A DNA stretch of 64,000 nt from Patellaria atrata CBS 101060 (Eukaryota; Ascomycota; Dothideomycetes; Patellariales; Patellariaceae): NCBI GenBank assembly GCA_010093705.1, contig MU006091.1, forward strand, positions 300,702 through 364,701. The letters run 5' to 3'. The notes under the pieces are model-generated. The model saw nothing but the letters and a program-made list of their open reading frames with translations, was not told where the DNA came from and searched no databases. The position numbers were made by a program, and so were the translations under genes. Below, one piece after another: positions 10,223 through 18,306 of this stretch. The stretch's first letter is position 1, and every line of letters begins with the position of its first letter.

Positions 10223-12376
10223 TTATGGCCCTAGCTCTGTCCCTATATGTACAGGACTCCAACCTACCCGTGACTTCGGAGGCAACGCTTCCAGAAATGA
10301 GTCGCATATATACTGAACCTGTTCCGACTTTAGGTAGGGATTCATTGGAAGGCTTAATATTCGTTCAGCTAACCAGTCGCTGTTCGCAAGTATTTGACCT
10401 TCCACGGTGTATTTCTCAAAAGCCAGATGCCGGTGTAAAGGCTTTGGATAGTATATTCCAGTCGAGATGCCTTTCAGTTCGAGTTCTTTGCGAATCTTCT
10501 CCCTCATATTCTCATTCTCGACAGTTACTGTGAACAGACCCCGGGCGTGTACATCTGTTTGGGAAATCTTCTGCACTGGGACTATTTTTTCCAGTTGGTC
10601 TTCATACATCTTTGCAACCCTCCTTCTCTCATGCAATTCTTCGTCCAGTATGGCTAACTTCGAAAGAAGTATTGCACATTGCATTGAGTCGAGACGCCCG
10701 TTAAGCCCAACCCGGATACTCATGGATCTAGCATCGTCCGTTCCGTGCCACCGTATAGATTTCCACCTTTTAAATCTTTCAAGGTCATCCGTGAATAGCG
10801 CTCCTCCATCACCGAATCCACCCAAAGATTTGGATGGGTAGAAACTAGTCGCCGTCATGTCTGCTAGAGTACCCACCCTTTGACCATTTTGCGATCCACC
10901 AAATGACTGAGCAGCATCAGCCAAAACAATCATCTGAAACTTTCGAGCAATTCGATTGATCTCTGCGTAGTTTGCGGGCAGTCCATACAGGTCGACTGCG
11001 ATTATAACTCTGGGTCTCAGTTTACCTTCGGTGACGACTCTCTGGATGGCGAGTTCGAGCGATCTGATGCAGATATTGCATGTATCTCGTTCTACGTCGA
11101 CGAAAATGGGTACCGCACCTGCTGTCAACACTGCGTTACACGTTGCGTTGTAGGTAAACGCTGGAATGAAAACAGCTTCATTTGGACCTAAATCTTCGCC
11201 CATCAGCGCTATCGTCAATGCAGTGGTCCCACTCGATACGGTCAGGGCATACTTTGCACCAGTGTATGAGGCCAACGATGCTTCCAACTCAGTCACCTCT
11301 GGACCGTTTATATATTGCATATGATCCAGGATCTTTGAGAGACTGCGTTCAATATCCGATCGCAAACGAACCGCGGGTGTTTGCATATCGAAAAGTGGTA
11401 TAGTCGTTATACCCGATTTAGGGGGCAAATAAGGGGATTGAGCCGCCTTCCCTTCTGATTTTGATGCGGCCAGAATATCCAACGTTACTTCTAGGGCACG
11501 CCTGCCATCTTCCCCGGTGATGCAGGGCTTACCCCTCGTCCTTACGCACTGAACAAACTTGCTGAGCGCAAGGCCCAAAGGATCGTATCGGACCTTGTCC
11601 GCACCATCCATCAGGTCGCTGAATTTTGCTTTGAGAGTTATCGGCCTGGTGTCTTCGATGTAACATACCAGGAAGTCGATAAACACAACACCATTTTCGT
11701 ATTGGATCAGCATGGTCCTTTCCCTCCTCTCAGCTCTTCGACTGGCAAAAAGCCGTACAGCACATTTACCAATAGAAAATGTTGCTCTAATGTCATCATT
11801 CGAGCTACCATTGGTGCGTGGGTCTACCTCCATATTCTGAATCTGTCCGTGAGCCAATTGAAGGGCCAGATCCACGTCATGAATGAGAAGGTCCAAGGCA
11901 ACATCCACGTCATTCCCACGACCCGTCCAGGTGTTTGTACGGTGACATTCAATACGAAGAGGAGTTTCATGTTTATCGAGGGACAATCGAGTGATAACGA
12001 AACGTTCCTGATGTCCAACCTGTAATATTCGACCGTTCTTTCTGGCAGCTTCCAAAATTCGGTCCGCATCCTGGAGTGTCGAGGCCAGTGGTTTTTCAAC
12101 ATACACATCTATTCCCTTCTTCAGGAGATGAACCGCTACCTCTGCATGGAATGTTGCTGGTGTGGTAATCGTAACCATATCGATCTGCCCTATGAACGGG
12201 TCCAATGTTGTCTGTGCAGAACAACCAAACTCGTTTGCAAGCTGGATAGCTCTATCAAGAGCTTTGTCGACAATAATCACCAGGTCAACATCTTCCATTG
12301 CTGCGTATTTGGTTGCATGATATCTGCCAAACATCCCGGCTCCAACAACGGCGGCTCGCAGGCGACGAGTTTCCAT
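10223..12376 (-). CDS. bifunctional GnnA-GnnB-like Gfo/Idh dehydrogenase-DegT aminotransferase
   Basis: Intronless 717-aa fusion. Residues 1 to about 310 are a Gfo/Idh/MocA NAD(P)-dependent dehydrogenase: Rossmann motif VVGAGMFGRYHATKY (10-24), catalytic-lysine motif VEKPLAS (K95) and LLIHDVDLAL (163-172) with the conserved His-Asp. Residues about 325-700 are a DegT/DnrJ/EryC1/StrS PLP aminotransferase: SSGTTAL (381-387), pyridine-nitrogen Asp D487 in LADAAQSFGG, Schiff-base lysine K516 in FYPSKSLGGFGDGG, and GLNGRLDSMQ (558-567). In bacteria the separate enzymes GnnA and GnnB convert UDP-GlcNAc via its 3-keto form to UDP-GlcNAc3N; WbpB/WbpE act likewise on the glucuronate form. All visible catalytic residues are kept. 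It is divergent from an LpxA-type gene 967 bases away. No introns, unlike nearly all neighbours, which suggests bacterial descent. The exact sugar substrate is inference. Confidence 0.9.
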   Translation of the reverse strand: METRRLRAAVVGAGMFGRYHATKYAAMEDVDLVIIVDKALDRAIQLANEFGCSAQTTLDPFIGQIDMVTITTPATFHAEVAVHLLKKGIDVYVEKPLASTLQDADRILEAARKNGRILQVGHQERFVITRLSLDKHETPLRIECHRTNTWTGRGNDVDVALDLLIHDVDLALQLAHGQIQNMEVDPRTNGSSNDDIRATFSIGKCAVRLFASRRAERRERTMLIQYENGVVFIDFLVCYIEDTRPITLKAKFSDLMDGADKVRYDPLGLALSKFVQCVRTRGKPCITGEDGRRALEVTLDILAASKSEGKAAQSPYLPPKSGITTIPLFDMQTPAVRLRSDIERSLSKILDHMQYINGPEVTELEASLASYTGAKYALTVSSGTTALTIALMGEDLGPNEAVFIPAFTYNATCNAVLTAGAVPIFVDVERDTCNICIRSLELAIQRVVTEGKLRPRVIIAVDLYGLPANYAEINRIARKFQMIVLADAAQSFGGSQNGQRVGTLADMTATSFYPSKSLGGFGDGGALFTDDLERFKRWKSIRWHGTDDARSMSIRVGLNGRLDSMQCAILLSKLAILDEELHERRRVAKMYEDQLEKIVPVQKISQTDVHARGLFTVTVENENMREKIRKELELKGISTGIYYPKPLHRHLAFEKYTVEGQILANSDWLAERILSLPMNPYLKSEQVQYICDSFLEALPPKSRVGWSPVHIGTELGP

Positions 12377-13343
12377 TTTGAAAGAATCCTATTGATATCA
12401 GAATTTTAATGTTACTGGACGCTCTGAGACACTCACTAAACGCACTGACATGCAGCGTTCAGTCCGAACCATTTTTCACTGAACAGGTTATGGAAAGTGT
12501 AGCGTCAGAACAGCCAATAGTCGCTTGTGCACTTCAGTTCGTGGGACACTAGTATGTCTTTCAAATAGTAACCTTACAGTCATCAAGGAATATCACAACA
12601 AGGAAGAGATAGTCATGGACAAACGAACATCGAAAAGGGTTTCAAAGTTGTATCGATAAAAGCTTTAAATAATGATCTATTTCGCGCATTACGTTGAGAC
12701 AGCATCGTAGAGGTCATAGTCTCTGCTAGTGTTGGGAGCTGTCAAAGCAAGCGACTGGGTTCCAGATTTCTTTGAACCTTCCAACAACACATGTGAGCTT
12801 TATCTTCTCTCTTAATGCGTTGATTATACCTTGGAAAGGGCTGGTTGCGGAGCCACTTTCCATTTGCGCAAATCAACAGCTATTCCTCTTTGCTCAACGA
12901 TTTTTCACCACTTTTTCTACCTTCGGTCCTCCTTCTATCTATAGAAGATATATGGAGCCTCTTTCCATTTACGCTAATCAACCGCTATCTATTTTCTCGA
13001 CGATTTCTGCATCTTTAAACCGTACTGGGCCATCCTCCCACCTATAGAAGGTCTATGGTAACATCTAACGTGAGACATTCTTTATGCTTGTAGGAATAAG
13101 TATAAGTGATAAGTATAACATATATACTAATCATTCTCAAGTTCGTTTCAAAAACATACGTACCTTAACATGAAAATCCGAATTCTACAATAAGATGGCG
13201 AGAAGATATATTTCATGAAATAGAAGAAGTAAAGAATAAGTACAGCTAAGCGAAAAGACATATCACAACTCATTCTGCCAATACGCTCCATCTTTTCCGT
13301 TTTCATTGCACCCATTTCTGTACCAGACCACCCAAACCTCAAG
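12377..13343. promoter_or_regulatory. divergent intergenic region between fusion gene and LpxA-type gene
   Basis: This 967-base region must hold both promoters of the divergently transcribed pair. It is AT-rich compared with the LpxA-type gene and contains a direct duplication (12849-13058). The stretch just before the LpxA start is pyrimidine- and CA-rich, as in many fungal 5' UTRs. Shared regulation of the two genes is an inference from the head-to-head arrangement. Confidence 0.5.
12849..13058 (+). repeat. 105-bp tandem direct duplication in the divergent promoter
   Basis: Two imperfect copies, 12849-12953 and 12954-13058. Both begin GGAGCC, then CTTTCCATTT, AATCAAC, GCTAT, and both end with CTATAGAAG and TATGG. 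They lie about midway between the two start codons. They could be duplicated transcription-factor sites or simple slippage. Confidence 0.75.
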
Positions 13344-14171
13344 ATGTCTGCTCCGACTTCAACTCTGGTAGCACCTCCCCTTATTCACCCTACCGCCATC
13401 ATCGATCCAAGCTGCACCCTTTCCTCCAGCGTGGAAATCGGTCCTTTCTGCTTCCTCGGTCCCAACGTACACATCGGCCCCGGGAGCAAACTCGTTTCTT
13501 CAGTTACCGTCATCGGCTCCACCACCATCGGCGCAAACTGCACCATCTGGCCCTCCGCCGTTCTCGGCAGCCCAGCTCAAGTCCGCAACTTGGGCTCTAC
13601 CGGCGGTGCCCTGGTGATCGGCGACCACTGCATCATACGCGAATGCGTAACCATCGGCCTCTCCTCCCTAGGCAAGGAGAAGCCAACAAGGCTCGGGAAC
13701 AGAGTGTACATCATGACGAACGTGCACGTTGCGCACGATTGCGTGATCGGCGATGATGTGACTATCATCCACGGTGTTGGGTTAGCAGGACACGTCACGG
13801 TGGGACGGGGCGCGACTATCGCTGGCCTTACGGGCGTGCATCAAAATATTGTTATCGGGGAATTGGCGTACCTTGCAGGGGGTGCGTTTGTGGGGAGCGA
13901 TGTGTTGCCTTTCTCTCTGGTGAAGGGGAATAGAGCGCGTACGTTTGGGGTGAACGGGGTAGGATTAGTGAGGGTGGGCTGGACCGAGGAGAGGATAAAG
14001 AGGTTGGCAGAAGCGGTGGAGTGGCTGTCTAAGGACCCAAAGAATATAATGGAAATGGAACAGGAGGAAGACGGGGATATCAAGAGGGTGGTGGAATTTG
14101 CGATGGAAAGCAAGAGAGGTGTTTGTTTATGGGAAAGTGTCTCGACTAAAGGGAGTAGATTAGATTTGTGA
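13344..14171 (+). CDS. lpxA-like: LpxA-type UDP-N-acetylglucosamine acyltransferase
   Basis: Intronless 275-aa left-handed beta-helix acyltransferase. Residues about 14-185 are hexapeptide repeats (for example IHPTAIIDPSC, EIGPFCFLGPNVHIGPG). LpxA signatures are intact: NVHVAHDCVIG with H128 and the catalytic-base position H131 (E. coli H122/H125), GLTGVHQ with H166 (E. coli H160), and the late motif KGNRARTFGVNGVGLVRVGW followed by a C-terminal helical domain. E. coli LpxA is 262 aa, so length fits a full enzyme. In bacteria LpxA moves a 3-hydroxyacyl group from ACP to the 3-position of UDP-GlcNAc, or to the 3-amine of UDP-GlcNAc3N where GnnA/GnnB are present. No signal or targeting peptide is obvious. 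The gene is visibly more GC-rich than its flanks. Alternative: a 3-N-acetyltransferase of the QdtC/WbpD kind, but the FGVN/GL.R.G tail favours LpxA. Confidence 0.9.
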   Translation: MSAPTSTLVAPPLIHPTAIIDPSCTLSSSVEIGPFCFLGPNVHIGPGSKLVSSVTVIGSTTIGANCTIWPSAVLGSPAQVRNLGSTGGALVIGDHCIIRECVTIGLSSLGKEKPTRLGNRVYIMTNVHVAHDCVIGDDVTIIHGVGLAGHVTVGRGATIAGLTGVHQNIVIGELAYLAGGAFVGSDVLPFSLVKGNRARTFGVNGVGLVRVGWTEERIKRLAEAVEWLSKDPKNIMEMEQEEDGDIKRVVEFAMESKRGVCLWESVSTKGSRLDL

Positions 14172-14440: not shown

Positions 14441-14633
14441 AAAAAAAATCGCAAAACAGTTCCCACCCCTCCGAAGAGGGTGTGGTACATCTGCTGCCCT
14501 CAACTTAGGGCCCAAGATATGGGGGCTTTTTGCCCCCTCGGGGAATCGACCCCGGGGTTGTCGAGATATGCCCAGTGGTAACAACCACTGGGCTACCCCG
14601 GGAGATGTTAAGTAGTTGCTGGATTATTGTTTA
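14441..14633 (-). mobile_element. tRNA-related SINE-like repeat, copy 1
   Basis: Read on the minus strand it starts with an A-box-like TAGCCCAGTGG and, about 40 bases on, a B-box-like GGTCGATTCC in a T-arm-like hairpin, so internal Pol III control is likely. The D-arm region forms a 9-bp stem GCCCAGTGG/CCACTGGGC. Further hairpins follow (GGGGGC/GCCCCC, GCCCT/AGGGC, one with an UUCG-type loop), and the minus-strand 3' end is T-rich as in Pol III terminators. A second copy lies at 59651-59860. No clear target-site duplication was found. Confidence 0.75.
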
Positions 14634-16694: not shown

Positions 16695-18306
16695 ATGCCC
16701 ACAGAACAACCTCCTCTTCCAACGCGGCAACTCTTAATTCTTTCGATATGTCGGTTCGCCCAACCTTGTACGTCTTCAAACTCATGTTTATCTACCTTTC
16801 TGATCAGCCTTAGTCGCTTTGGGATCTATATTCCCATGTATTCCAAACTACATTGAGGATCTTGGTATTCCACAATCGAAGGTTGCGATATGGCTCGGTG
16901 CACTAGCAGCGACTTTTGCACTTTGTGAATCTATGTTCGCCATTCCATGGGCATTTTTCTCTGATTATGCTGGCCGAAAGCTGGCCATCGTTATTGGGCT
17001 TCTGATCTCCATGGTTGCAAATATTTGCTTAGGTTTCTGCACATCAATCGCTCAGTCCATGGTTTGTTTTGCCGTTGCGGGCGCCGCAAATGGGAATCTC
17101 GTTGTGATGCGTACAACCATAGCTGAGCTTGTTCTGGAGAAAGAGTTACAGTCGACAGCGTATTCGTTTCTCCCTATCTCTGCGAGCATTGCTTCGATTA
17201 TAGGACCTGTGGTAGGGGGTAATCTGGGAAAGATTGTGCCGAGCGACCACAATCTTCTTGCCCTTTTCCAAAGTCATCGGTTTGTTTTGCCTAATCTCGT
17301 CTCTGGGTTTGTGTTTCTTCCTGGAATTTTTACAGCAATATTGCTCCTCGAGGTAATCACCATTGAATGAGGTTATTGCGTATTCCGCTGAAACGTCCAG
17401 GAAACCTGCCATGATCGGAGCTTGCGTCTATTTACCACCAATGGATACGAGACCCTTGAAACCAGCGACGCAAGCAACATTAACGATAGCTATGAAGCTG
17501 ACATTGCTTTGTTGAATCTTCATGAACCTACAGATGAAGAAGAGAGTCCGAAAGGAAGGACTAGACATCTCAATGATTTTGAAAACACTGAGGGTAAGAT
17601 TGTTACGGTCGACAACAAACGCCGTACATGGCAGCATTTTGCAAATATCTATATGTGGATCAATAGCCTCTCAGGCCTGCACACCACAGGATTCGATCAT
17701 CTCCTGCCTGTTTTCTTGCACTCCTCCACTGCACGGATACATTCTGGATGGAGTCTCATACAGTTTGCACATGGTTTTGGGAAAGGTGCCATTTCCCTAT
17801 TTCAACTGCATAGGCCATAACTAACAACAAGGAAAGACTCGCAGTCTATCGGCACCCTACTTGCGGGTTGCGGAATCATTCCTATACTCACGAATCTCTT
17901 TCTTTATCCTCGAGTAGCCCGTACCTATGGCCGTCTTAAGACTCTTCGATTAGGCCTTACTATTACCCCCTTCATTTACGCTACTTTTCCATTCTCAGTC
18001 GTCCCTTCACATCCAGCCGTGCAGATGATCTGTTTAATCGGTTTCTTACTCGTCAAAATAATAGTGTCAGTTTCAATCCTACAATGTTGCATGATCCTCT
18101 TAACCAATTCGGTCCCGCCAAGGGATCTCGCCTCTCTCAACGGGCTGAACTTTGCCGTTGCGTCGATTTGTCGAGGGCTCGGCTCGTTTATCAGCGGTCT
18201 GATGTTTACTTTCGGCATGAGCCATGGATATGCTATTCTACCTTATTGGGCTCTTGCCGGGTTTTCTTCTACTGTGATTATTCTTGCTTGTGGAATATCA
18301 TCTTGA
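16695..18306 (+). CDS. MFS transporter (DHA1/ZIFL-like)
   Basis: Twelve-helix-type major facilitator, 484 aa, resembling plant ZIFL and yeast YCR023C-type carriers. Four exons: 16695-16767, 16808-17352, 17401-17762, 17832-18306; introns of 40, 48 and 69 bases with branch sites, all in phase. Exon 1 gives LPTRQLLILSICRFAQP, the usual first helix, spliced to SLVALGSIFPCIPNYIEDLG. The MFS loop-2 signature region reads WAFFSDYAGRKLAIVIG. After a polar central loop of about 100 residues (ETLETSDASN region) the second half has PPRDLASLNGLNFAVASICRG. The donor of intron 3 (GTTTGC) is weak but restores the frame. Substrate unknown; this branch includes efflux carriers for metabolites, metals and drugs. 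It sits 2.5 kb from the LpxA-type gene, and a link to that module is only a guess. Confidence 0.85.

Follow-up and report, generated by a model that had tools for sequence, protein, structure and literature searches.

What can a fungus make with two neighboring genes that resemble the bacterial entry into lipid A biosynthesis? The question is raised by a locus of Patellaria atrata CBS 101060, which we analyzed within a window of 64,000 nucleotides (assembly GCA_010093705.1, contig MU006091.1, positions 300,702 to 364,701). On the minus strand of this window, an intronless open reading frame (ORF) encodes P0001, a GnnA-GnnB-like fusion of 717 amino acids (10223..12376), and on the plus strand a second intronless ORF encodes P0002, an LpxA-type acyltransferase of 275 amino acids (13344..14171). 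The two ORFs are divergent, each is open from ATG to stop, and both share one upstream region of 967 bp (12377..13343, no strand). We propose, with the balance modestly in favor, that this locus holds a small biosynthetic module built from bacterial-type genes, in which GnnA-GnnB chemistry would be followed by 3-N-acylation by P0002.

GnnA and GnnB, which convert uridine diphosphate N-acetylglucosamine (UDP-GlcNAc) to UDP-GlcNAc3N, are described from Acidithiobacillus, Campylobacter, and Alphaproteobacteria (PMC8036547, PMC5644692, and PMC7663294, in excerpt), and a diamino sugar occurs in the lipid A of Caulobacter crescentus (PMC5644692, in excerpt). Among the open-access titles listed, there was no paper on fungal GnnA, GnnB, or LpxA enzymes, subscription papers lying mostly outside that scope, and the excerpted parts of a lichen genome paper (PMC6652019) hold nothing that bears on the GnnA-GnnB/LpxA pair. 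A two-gene nucleotide-sugar cluster of Wangiella (PMC4059230) was set aside as a different system, composed of a UDP-GlcNAc 6-dehydrogenase gene and a chitin-synthase-like gene.

A fused GnnA-GnnB protein of alphaproteobacterial type

P0001 comprises a GnnA half (residues 1-312; 11441..12376, minus strand), predicted to be a Gfo/Idh/MocA-type sugar-nucleotide 3-dehydrogenase, a linker at about residues 313-325 (11402..11440, minus strand), and a GnnB half (residues 326-717; 10226..11401, minus strand), predicted to be a DegT/DnrJ/EryC1 aminotransferase dependent on pyridoxal phosphate (PLP). Pfam places GFO_IDH_MocA at residues 6-122 (1.6e-26) and DegT_DnrJ_EryC1 at residues 339-694 (8.4e-92); these domain matches, and the LpxA family matches of the neighboring ORF, are far beyond chance. 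All 44 columns that are invariant in 32 GnnB rows are kept in the GnnB half, including D487 (10916-10918, minus strand) and the PLP lysine K516 (10829-10831, minus strand), and Q490 is present as well. The GnnA half keeps 37 of the 39 columns invariant in 15 GnnA rows, with D90 and L164 as the departures, and the EKP lysine and D...HD motif of the GnnA fold are among the kept positions (K95 at 12092-12094, minus strand; D162, H166, and D167). From the GnnA rows L061, L072, L074, and L085 had been dropped, and from the GnnB rows L061; L072 is still in an earlier GnnA tree.

In one scan of a prokaryote collection, three near full-length relatives of P0001 were found, all in alphaproteobacterial metagenome-assembled genomes (L010, L011, and L012; 59, 57, and 48% identity over the best segment), and no match exceeded 59%. 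All three encode GnnA and GnnB in two adjacent genes that follow the order of the P0001 halves. In L012, the two genes lie in one frame and are parted by a single stop and one codon, and therefore fusion would need very little. Matches at E <= 1e-60 were obtained in 143 of 385 sampled Alphaproteobacteria genomes, most of those listed in the GnnB half only. We examined 33 loci, namely, 30 listed from the 385-genome sample and L010-L012. The gene gnnA lies directly upstream of gnnB, on the same strand and within 100 bp, in 17 of them (16 of 32 without L061, which is the same gene pair as L010; the GnnA-like neighbor in L085 is weak, at 26%), and no fused gene was seen among these 17 bacterial loci with both halves together.

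Phylogeny agrees with this picture. In the tree, the fungal GnnB half joins L010-L012 (100/100), and all four belong to a 15-row clade (100/100) that excludes Brucella 4qgr and WbpE (100/100). Thirteen of the 14 bacterial members of the clade have gnnA directly upstream; in the sequence stretch of the fourteenth, L063, gnnA was not seen. A placement of the fungal GnnB half outside this clade, which was named after the tree was seen, is rejected in the approximately unbiased (AU) test (p-AU 0.007). The GnnA half falls in the corresponding 14-row group of gnnA genes directly upstream of gnnB (100/100), and the adjacent gnnA-gnnB pairs of L081 and L086 fall outside that group. Derivation of the fungal gene from an alphaproteobacterial gnnA-gnnB operon, followed by fusion, is thus a well-supported reading of the sequence comparisons. 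Among plasmid records, relatives of P0001 reached 29-41% in the 30 matches listed of 1,467 records and LpxA 33-38% to P0002 in the 20 listed of 56; in viral contigs, no relatives of P0001 or P0002 were found by the patterns used.

In the bacteria themselves (L010-L012 and L117-L126), gnnA-gnnB stands in a partly conserved chromosomal neighborhood of housekeeping type, as far as an incomplete table goes. Judged by eye, the neighbors are presumably glutathione reductase, DAHP (3-deoxy-D-arabino-heptulosonate 7-phosphate) synthase, quinone oxidoreductases, NAD synthetase, gltX, cysS, and citramalate synthase, and an evident O-antigen cassette was not seen by eye around gnnA-gnnB in the loci fetched.

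The same C3 chemistry, oxidation, transamination, and N-acylation, is performed in the WbpB-WbpE-WbpD/WlbA route to UDP-GlcNAc3NAcA, and the fusion might instead act on UDP-GlcNAcA to give UDP-GlcNAc3NA, which would be N-acylated later. Among proteins of solved structure, WbpE is one of the closest to the GnnB half (E 2.4e-74), and such a route is described (PMC10622841, in excerpt). However, the GnnB half stands outside the WbpE group in the tree, and the route needs UDP-GlcNAcA, which is not to be expected here: no UDP-sugar 6-dehydrogenase (PF03721) was matched genome-wide, with seven candidates scored and 13 of 14 control genomes positive, in six-frame searches without intron models, which genes in short exons could escape. 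For the GnnA half, the closest relative of known structure is 7bvj, which we take to be a UDP-GlcNAc 3-dehydrogenase, and P0002 has an LpxA C-terminal domain, which WbpD-type acetyltransferases presumably lack. We consider the uronic-acid route quite improbable. UDP-GlcNAc as the substrate gains support because no UDP-sugar 6-dehydrogenase was found, and chemistry as far as UDP-GlcNAc3N is likely for P0001.

A diverged LpxA-type acyltransferase

P0002 contains Pfam Hexapep and the LpxA C-terminal domain Acetyltransf_11 and passes both NCBIfam equivalogs for LpxA (247.9 bits against a cut-off of 226, and 241 against 231.05). It is modeled as a left-handed beta-helix with a helical LpxA C-terminal domain (predicted local distance difference test 90.4), and the first 30 of 672 matches of this model in the PDB are LpxAs. 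The top match is 3hsq (template modeling score [TM-score] 0.86/0.92), the title of which refers to sugar-nucleotide and acyl-chain selectivity of Leptospira interrogans LpxA; we take this enzyme to be selective for UDP-GlcNAc3N.

The catalytic dyad and the oxyanion glycine are kept, H131 (13734-13736, plus strand), D132 (13737-13739, plus strand), and G149 corresponding to H125, D126, and G143 of Escherichia coli LpxA. Counterparts of E. coli H122, H144, Q161, Q73, N198, R204, and G173 are likewise present, among them G179 (G173) and the sugar-nucleotide contacts H150 (H144), Q167 (Q161), and N204 (N198), whereas two further contacts, K76 and R205, are replaced (N82 and V211); the roles of the E. 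coli residues are taken from PMC6286764 and PMC6408518 (in excerpt). The exchange of H191 for R197 is ordinary, arginine being common there among bacterial LpxAs. Of 41 columns conserved to at least 93% in 62 bacterial LpxA rows, P0002 keeps 34.

At the level of the class, 262 of 289 genomes searched matched P0002 at E <= 0.001; at the level of the phylum, 37 of 398 did so at E <= 1e-46. In the LpxA trees, the branch of P0002 is very long, at 3.28-3.54 changes per column, or 8- to 10-fold the median length of the end branches. Clade tests, made with trees from which L090, L052, L024, L047, L113, L041, and L093 had been dropped as long rows, did not reject its union with LpxAs of the donor lineage (p 0.355), Fusobacterium (0.355), E. 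coli (0.11), the eight rows with gnnA linked to lpxA (0.78), or the eight alphaproteobacterial GnnA-positive rows (0.81). By sequence, P0002 is a diverged LpxA-family protein of bacterial type, for which the clade tests favor no donor lineage. Elsewhere in the fungal genome it has three other matches, all weak (E 1.4e-5 to 7.8e-5), and other hexapeptide proteins exist. The LpxA of Arabidopsis (3t57) is likewise eukaryotic, but P0002 is nearer to bacterial LpxAs (Moraxella, E 8e-45, versus 1.7e-34 for 3t57); plants also have genes for later steps of lipid A synthesis and are not known to have a GnnAB partner. A paper on the peroxisome that names LpxA (PMC12316961) was set aside; it concerns an LpxA-like superfamily domain.

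P0002 might also acetylate the 3-amine, which would give UDP-2,3-diacetamido-glucose for a surface glycan without any lipid. A 2,3-diacetamido-sugar N-acetyltransferase, 8e62, is among the fold matches (rank 42), and contacts to the 3-hydroxyacyl chain are partly changed, with the water-binding H99 replaced by G105. Against this, P0002 is a whole LpxA rather than a short hexapeptide acetyltransferase, as ranks 1-30 of the fold matches indicate, and counterparts of E. coli Q73 and of the chain-ruler glycine G173 (G179 here) are retained. We regard acetylation as improbable.

The D74/K76 pair as a clue to the substrate

Which sugar nucleotide an LpxA uses might be reflected in its contact residues. 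The 64 genomes from which the LpxA rows came were each scored for GnnA, and those with at least 120 bits were called GnnA-positive. The pair of D74 and K76 (E. coli numbering) is absent in 20 of 21 GnnA-positive genomes, with G205 as the one that keeps it, versus 10 of 43 others (Fisher p 4.8e-8, the E. coli, Fusobacterium, and Paracoccus rows being left out of the count), for residues and a threshold that were chosen after a partial look and with many alternative residues. K76 alone is absent in 16 of the 21 GnnA-positive bacteria. The LpxA of a donor-like genome (G001) lacks both residues, and P0002 keeps neither, with V and N at these positions. Controlled for kinship, the association leaves three independent contrasts (mean of 2.2 in the expected direction and 0.0 in the other) and is not significant. 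At other separating columns P0002 is mixed: its N at position 190 is as in most GnnA-positive genomes, and its S at position 46 is as in GnnA-negative ones.

At position 170, Phe is found in 18 of 21 GnnA-positive genomes versus 6 of 43 others (LpxA loci L017-L019, L129-L133, and L092-L112). Loss of D74/K76 and Phe170 are possible marks of UDP-GlcNAc3N use in LpxAs; as it stands, the D74/K76 association is a lead, not proof. Loss of the pair would offer a testable rule for separating UDP-GlcNAc3N-type LpxAs from ordinary ones in bacteria.

A proposed route to an N-acylated diamino sugar nucleotide

We propose that the GnnA half oxidizes C3 of UDP-GlcNAc with NAD to give UDP-3-keto-GlcNAc, and that the GnnB half converts this ketone to the amine by PLP-dependent transamination and so yields UDP-GlcNAc3N; for both steps the case is strong. 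The fusion would let the keto intermediate stay within one protein. In the third step, for which the case is moderate, P0002, presumably a trimer, would use H131 and D132 to place an acyl chain from acyl carrier protein or another thioester on the 3-amine, the product being UDP-3-N-acyl-GlcNAc3N. This product would keep its 2-N-acetyl group and could serve a glycosyltransferase in the making of a glycolipid, a surface glycan, or a secondary metabolite. We rate 3-N-acylation by P0002 as moderately likely.

The lipid A genes missing from this fungus can be read in the same direction. LpxC, LpxB, and LpxK gave no matches genome-wide in the six-frame searches, with controls positive in 4, 6, and 3 of 14 genomes, respectively; LpxD was not searched with a model of its own, nor were the three weak P0002 matches scored against LpxD. 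Lipid A as the end product is argued against because LpxC, LpxB, and LpxK were not found, and the absences fit a route that would end at UDP-3-N-acyl-GlcNAc3N. For the O-acylation catalyzed by LpxA, the equilibrium constant is about 0.01, and the committing step is that of LpxC (PMC6408518 and PMC6286764, in excerpt). An ester-forming LpxA would therefore be poorly driven in this fungus, the equilibrium being uphill and no LpxC having been found, whereas on chemical grounds an amide at C3 would need no pull by LpxC, which ties the LpxA, the fusion, and the missing LpxC together. It is tempting to speculate that a truncated lipid A entry has been repurposed here, the fused GnnA-GnnB and an amide-forming LpxA supplying the donor for a fungal glycolipid or glycan with an N-acyl-diaminosugar, as yet undescribed and made stable without LpxC by its amide bond; we hold this extended reading tentatively and at somewhat less than even chances. 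If it is true, the fungus may make a sugar lipid of a kind not known from fungi.

Several observations weigh against the module, besides the reservations about the D74/K76 pair. P0001 stays under the curated cut-offs of all 16 NCBIfam models that it matched; the GnnA half scored 145.9 bits with NF040723 (UDP-GlcNAc 3-dehydrogenase), short of the cut-off of 450. The gnnA and gnnB products of L010 and L012 are likewise under the cut-offs, and no model named GnnA or GnnB is among those matched by P0001 or by these genes. Proven GnnA and GnnB were set beside P0001 by their descriptions, not their sequences, and the branch of the GnnA half is long (about 40% identity), with its sister rows not settled within the group. 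P0002 passes the LpxA equivalogs narrowly (241-248 bits, versus 352-403 for three bacterial LpxAs), and the listed bacterial matches over most of its length are only 35-45% identical. Structure 3hsq leads only slightly: its TM-scores are equaled by other LpxAs, and in the ranking by sequence it is sixth, with Moraxella LpxA at the top. P0002 lacks K76, which contacts the ring oxygen (N82 instead, at the end of the Q79-N82 loop, 13578-13589, plus strand), and R205, which contacts uracil (V211), in addition to H99. Its seven departures from the conserved columns are at E. coli positions 47, 65, 101, 137, 154, 164, and 172, G172 being invariant in the 62 rows.

Comparison with the known systems gives both sides. 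With GnnA and GnnB, P0001 shares the domain families, the gene order, the invariant residues, and the phylogeny of its GnnB half; it differs in being one fused protein, of predicted activity, in a fungus. With the Leptospira LpxA, P0002 shares a full beta-helix, a helical C-terminal domain, the catalytic dyad, and scores above the curated cut-offs; it differs in its low identity to the listed bacterial matches, in an altered sugar-contact loop, and in a genome in which LpxC, LpxB, and LpxK were not found. The preliminary description of this DNA had reported two intronless, divergent, and adjacent ORFs and had assigned one to a GnnA-GnnB fusion and the other to the LpxA family. The ORFs are as reported, the first assignment is borne out by gene order, phylogeny, and invariant residues, and the second by the curated cut-offs and the C-terminal domain. 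The residues that it named are correct, with K95, D487, and K516 invariant in the bacterial rows and H131 aligned with E. coli H125. Its statement that all recognizable catalytic residues are present holds for catalysis but not for the substrate contacts, as the positions of K76, R205, and H99 differ. It also saw no downstream lipid A genes, and the genome-wide searches for LpxC, LpxB, and LpxK now extend that observation.

The most serious alternative is that P0001 makes UDP-GlcNAc3N while P0002, though LpxA-like, has diverged to acylate some other acceptor (UDP-GlcNAc or something else) and is a neighbor by accident. The very long branch of P0002, its altered sugar and uracil contacts, and the placement of gnnA and lpxA on separate contigs in 10 of 11 GnnA-positive Alphaproteobacteria genomes speak for it. 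However, the catalytic dyad, the oxyanion glycine, the phosphate-binding Gln, and the uracil-binding Asn are kept, esterification of UDP-GlcNAc without LpxC would be uphill, and the three other P0002 matches of the genome are weak. Moreover, two rare bacterial-type genes of one pathway stand 967 bp apart in 28.3 Mb, and 10 of 21 GnnA-positive bacteria have gnnA no more than 2.4 kb from lpxA. We judge the accidental neighborhood unlikely, at about one chance in four.

Linkage and history of the two genes

The proximity of gnnA to lpxA in those ten genomes (G388, G415, G422, G426, G434, G448, G455, G469, G389, and G234) takes a recurrent form: in eight, the gap is 0.9-1.1 kb and both genes are on the same strand. 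Of the 11 GnnA-positive Alphaproteobacteria, the ten with gnnA and lpxA on different contigs, which in fragmented bacterial assemblies is no measure of distance, include all eight with the operonic gnnA-gnnB most similar to the fungal gene, and in the eleventh, G234, 2.1 kb separates the two genes, which are on opposite strands. In Phyllobacterium, Bradyrhizobium, and Brucella, too, gnnA and gnnB are near each other and apart from lpxABD (PMC5644692, in excerpt), an arrangement that P0001 resembles in the adjacency of its halves. The fungal neighborhood thus repeats a known functional pairing, not the arrangement of the nearest apparent donors, in which gnnA and lpxA are mostly apart. This may indicate either an unsampled donor with all three genes together or an assembly of the pair in the fungus. 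The preliminary description had proposed a transferred bacterial module. Of this, the alphaproteobacterial origin of the fusion gene stands, whereas transfer of a single ready module is, by these comparisons, not established, because P0002 is more divergent and its donor cannot be placed.

A decayed GnnA-like stretch with stops of about 230 bp (C14:237245-237475; L014, L053, and L054) lies on another contig of the same genome. Its identity to P0001 is 61% for residues 159-207 and 74% across 243 nucleotides, whereas none of 15 bacterial GnnA rows exceeds 41% across these 49 residues of P0001. An LpxA-like remnant was not found in the 19 kb around it. Because of this decayed copy, the GnnA-GnnB gene has probably been in the lineage long enough to duplicate and lose one copy. 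The dead copy and the lack of introns in both genes could also mean that the locus itself is a nonfunctional or decaying remnant of gene transfer. However, both ORFs are intact and keep the invariants (44/44 and 37/39) and LpxA columns (34/41) counted above, and a gene without constraint at 35-59% identity would lose such residues; we consider a remnant very improbable. A gene near the decayed stretch resembles, by eye, one for a mitochondrial assembly factor.

The locus in the fungal genome

Bacterial contamination or misassembly, which the preliminary description had named as grounds for abandoning its reading, was examined and rejected. The genes are bacterial in type and intronless, as contaminants would be, but the contig is 1,828,131 bp long in an assembly of 28.3 Mb and 46 contigs, the window is free of N, and fungal genes flank the locus on both sides, among them those for condensin subunit 3, a gamma-tubulin-complex protein, and a transglutaminase-like protein. 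In the PDB, this condensin is matched best by 5oqr (E 2.3e-117), presumably condensin of a filamentous ascomycete. The G+C content of the locus is similar to its surroundings, nothing closer than 59% came from the prokaryote scan, none of the 17 bacterial loci holds a fused gene, and the decayed relative is on another contig of the same genome. Contamination of the locus is unlikely because both ORFs lie inside a 1.83-Mb contig between fungal genes, and we give contamination or misassembly hardly any credence. Codon usage of P0001 and P0002 shows no clear separation from six host ORFs; G+C at third codon positions is 0.638 for P0002, 0.462 for P0001, and 0.40-0.58 for the six host ORFs.

Both P0001 and P0002 have A at -3 in their start contexts, and no targeting extension is evident by eye on either protein. 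The common upstream region contains an imperfect duplication with a period of about 105 bp, in two blocks (12849-12883/12954-12988 and 12925-12955/13028-13058), with identities of 89% and 77%. Downstream of P0002, a strong G+C-rich hairpin at 14530-14605 looks tRNA-like by eye, with no match by ARAGORN or Rfam. Farther 3' of P0002, at 16819-18306, are exons of a major facilitator superfamily (MFS)-type transporter, with MFS_1 in 16819-17370 and the later part recognized by eye.

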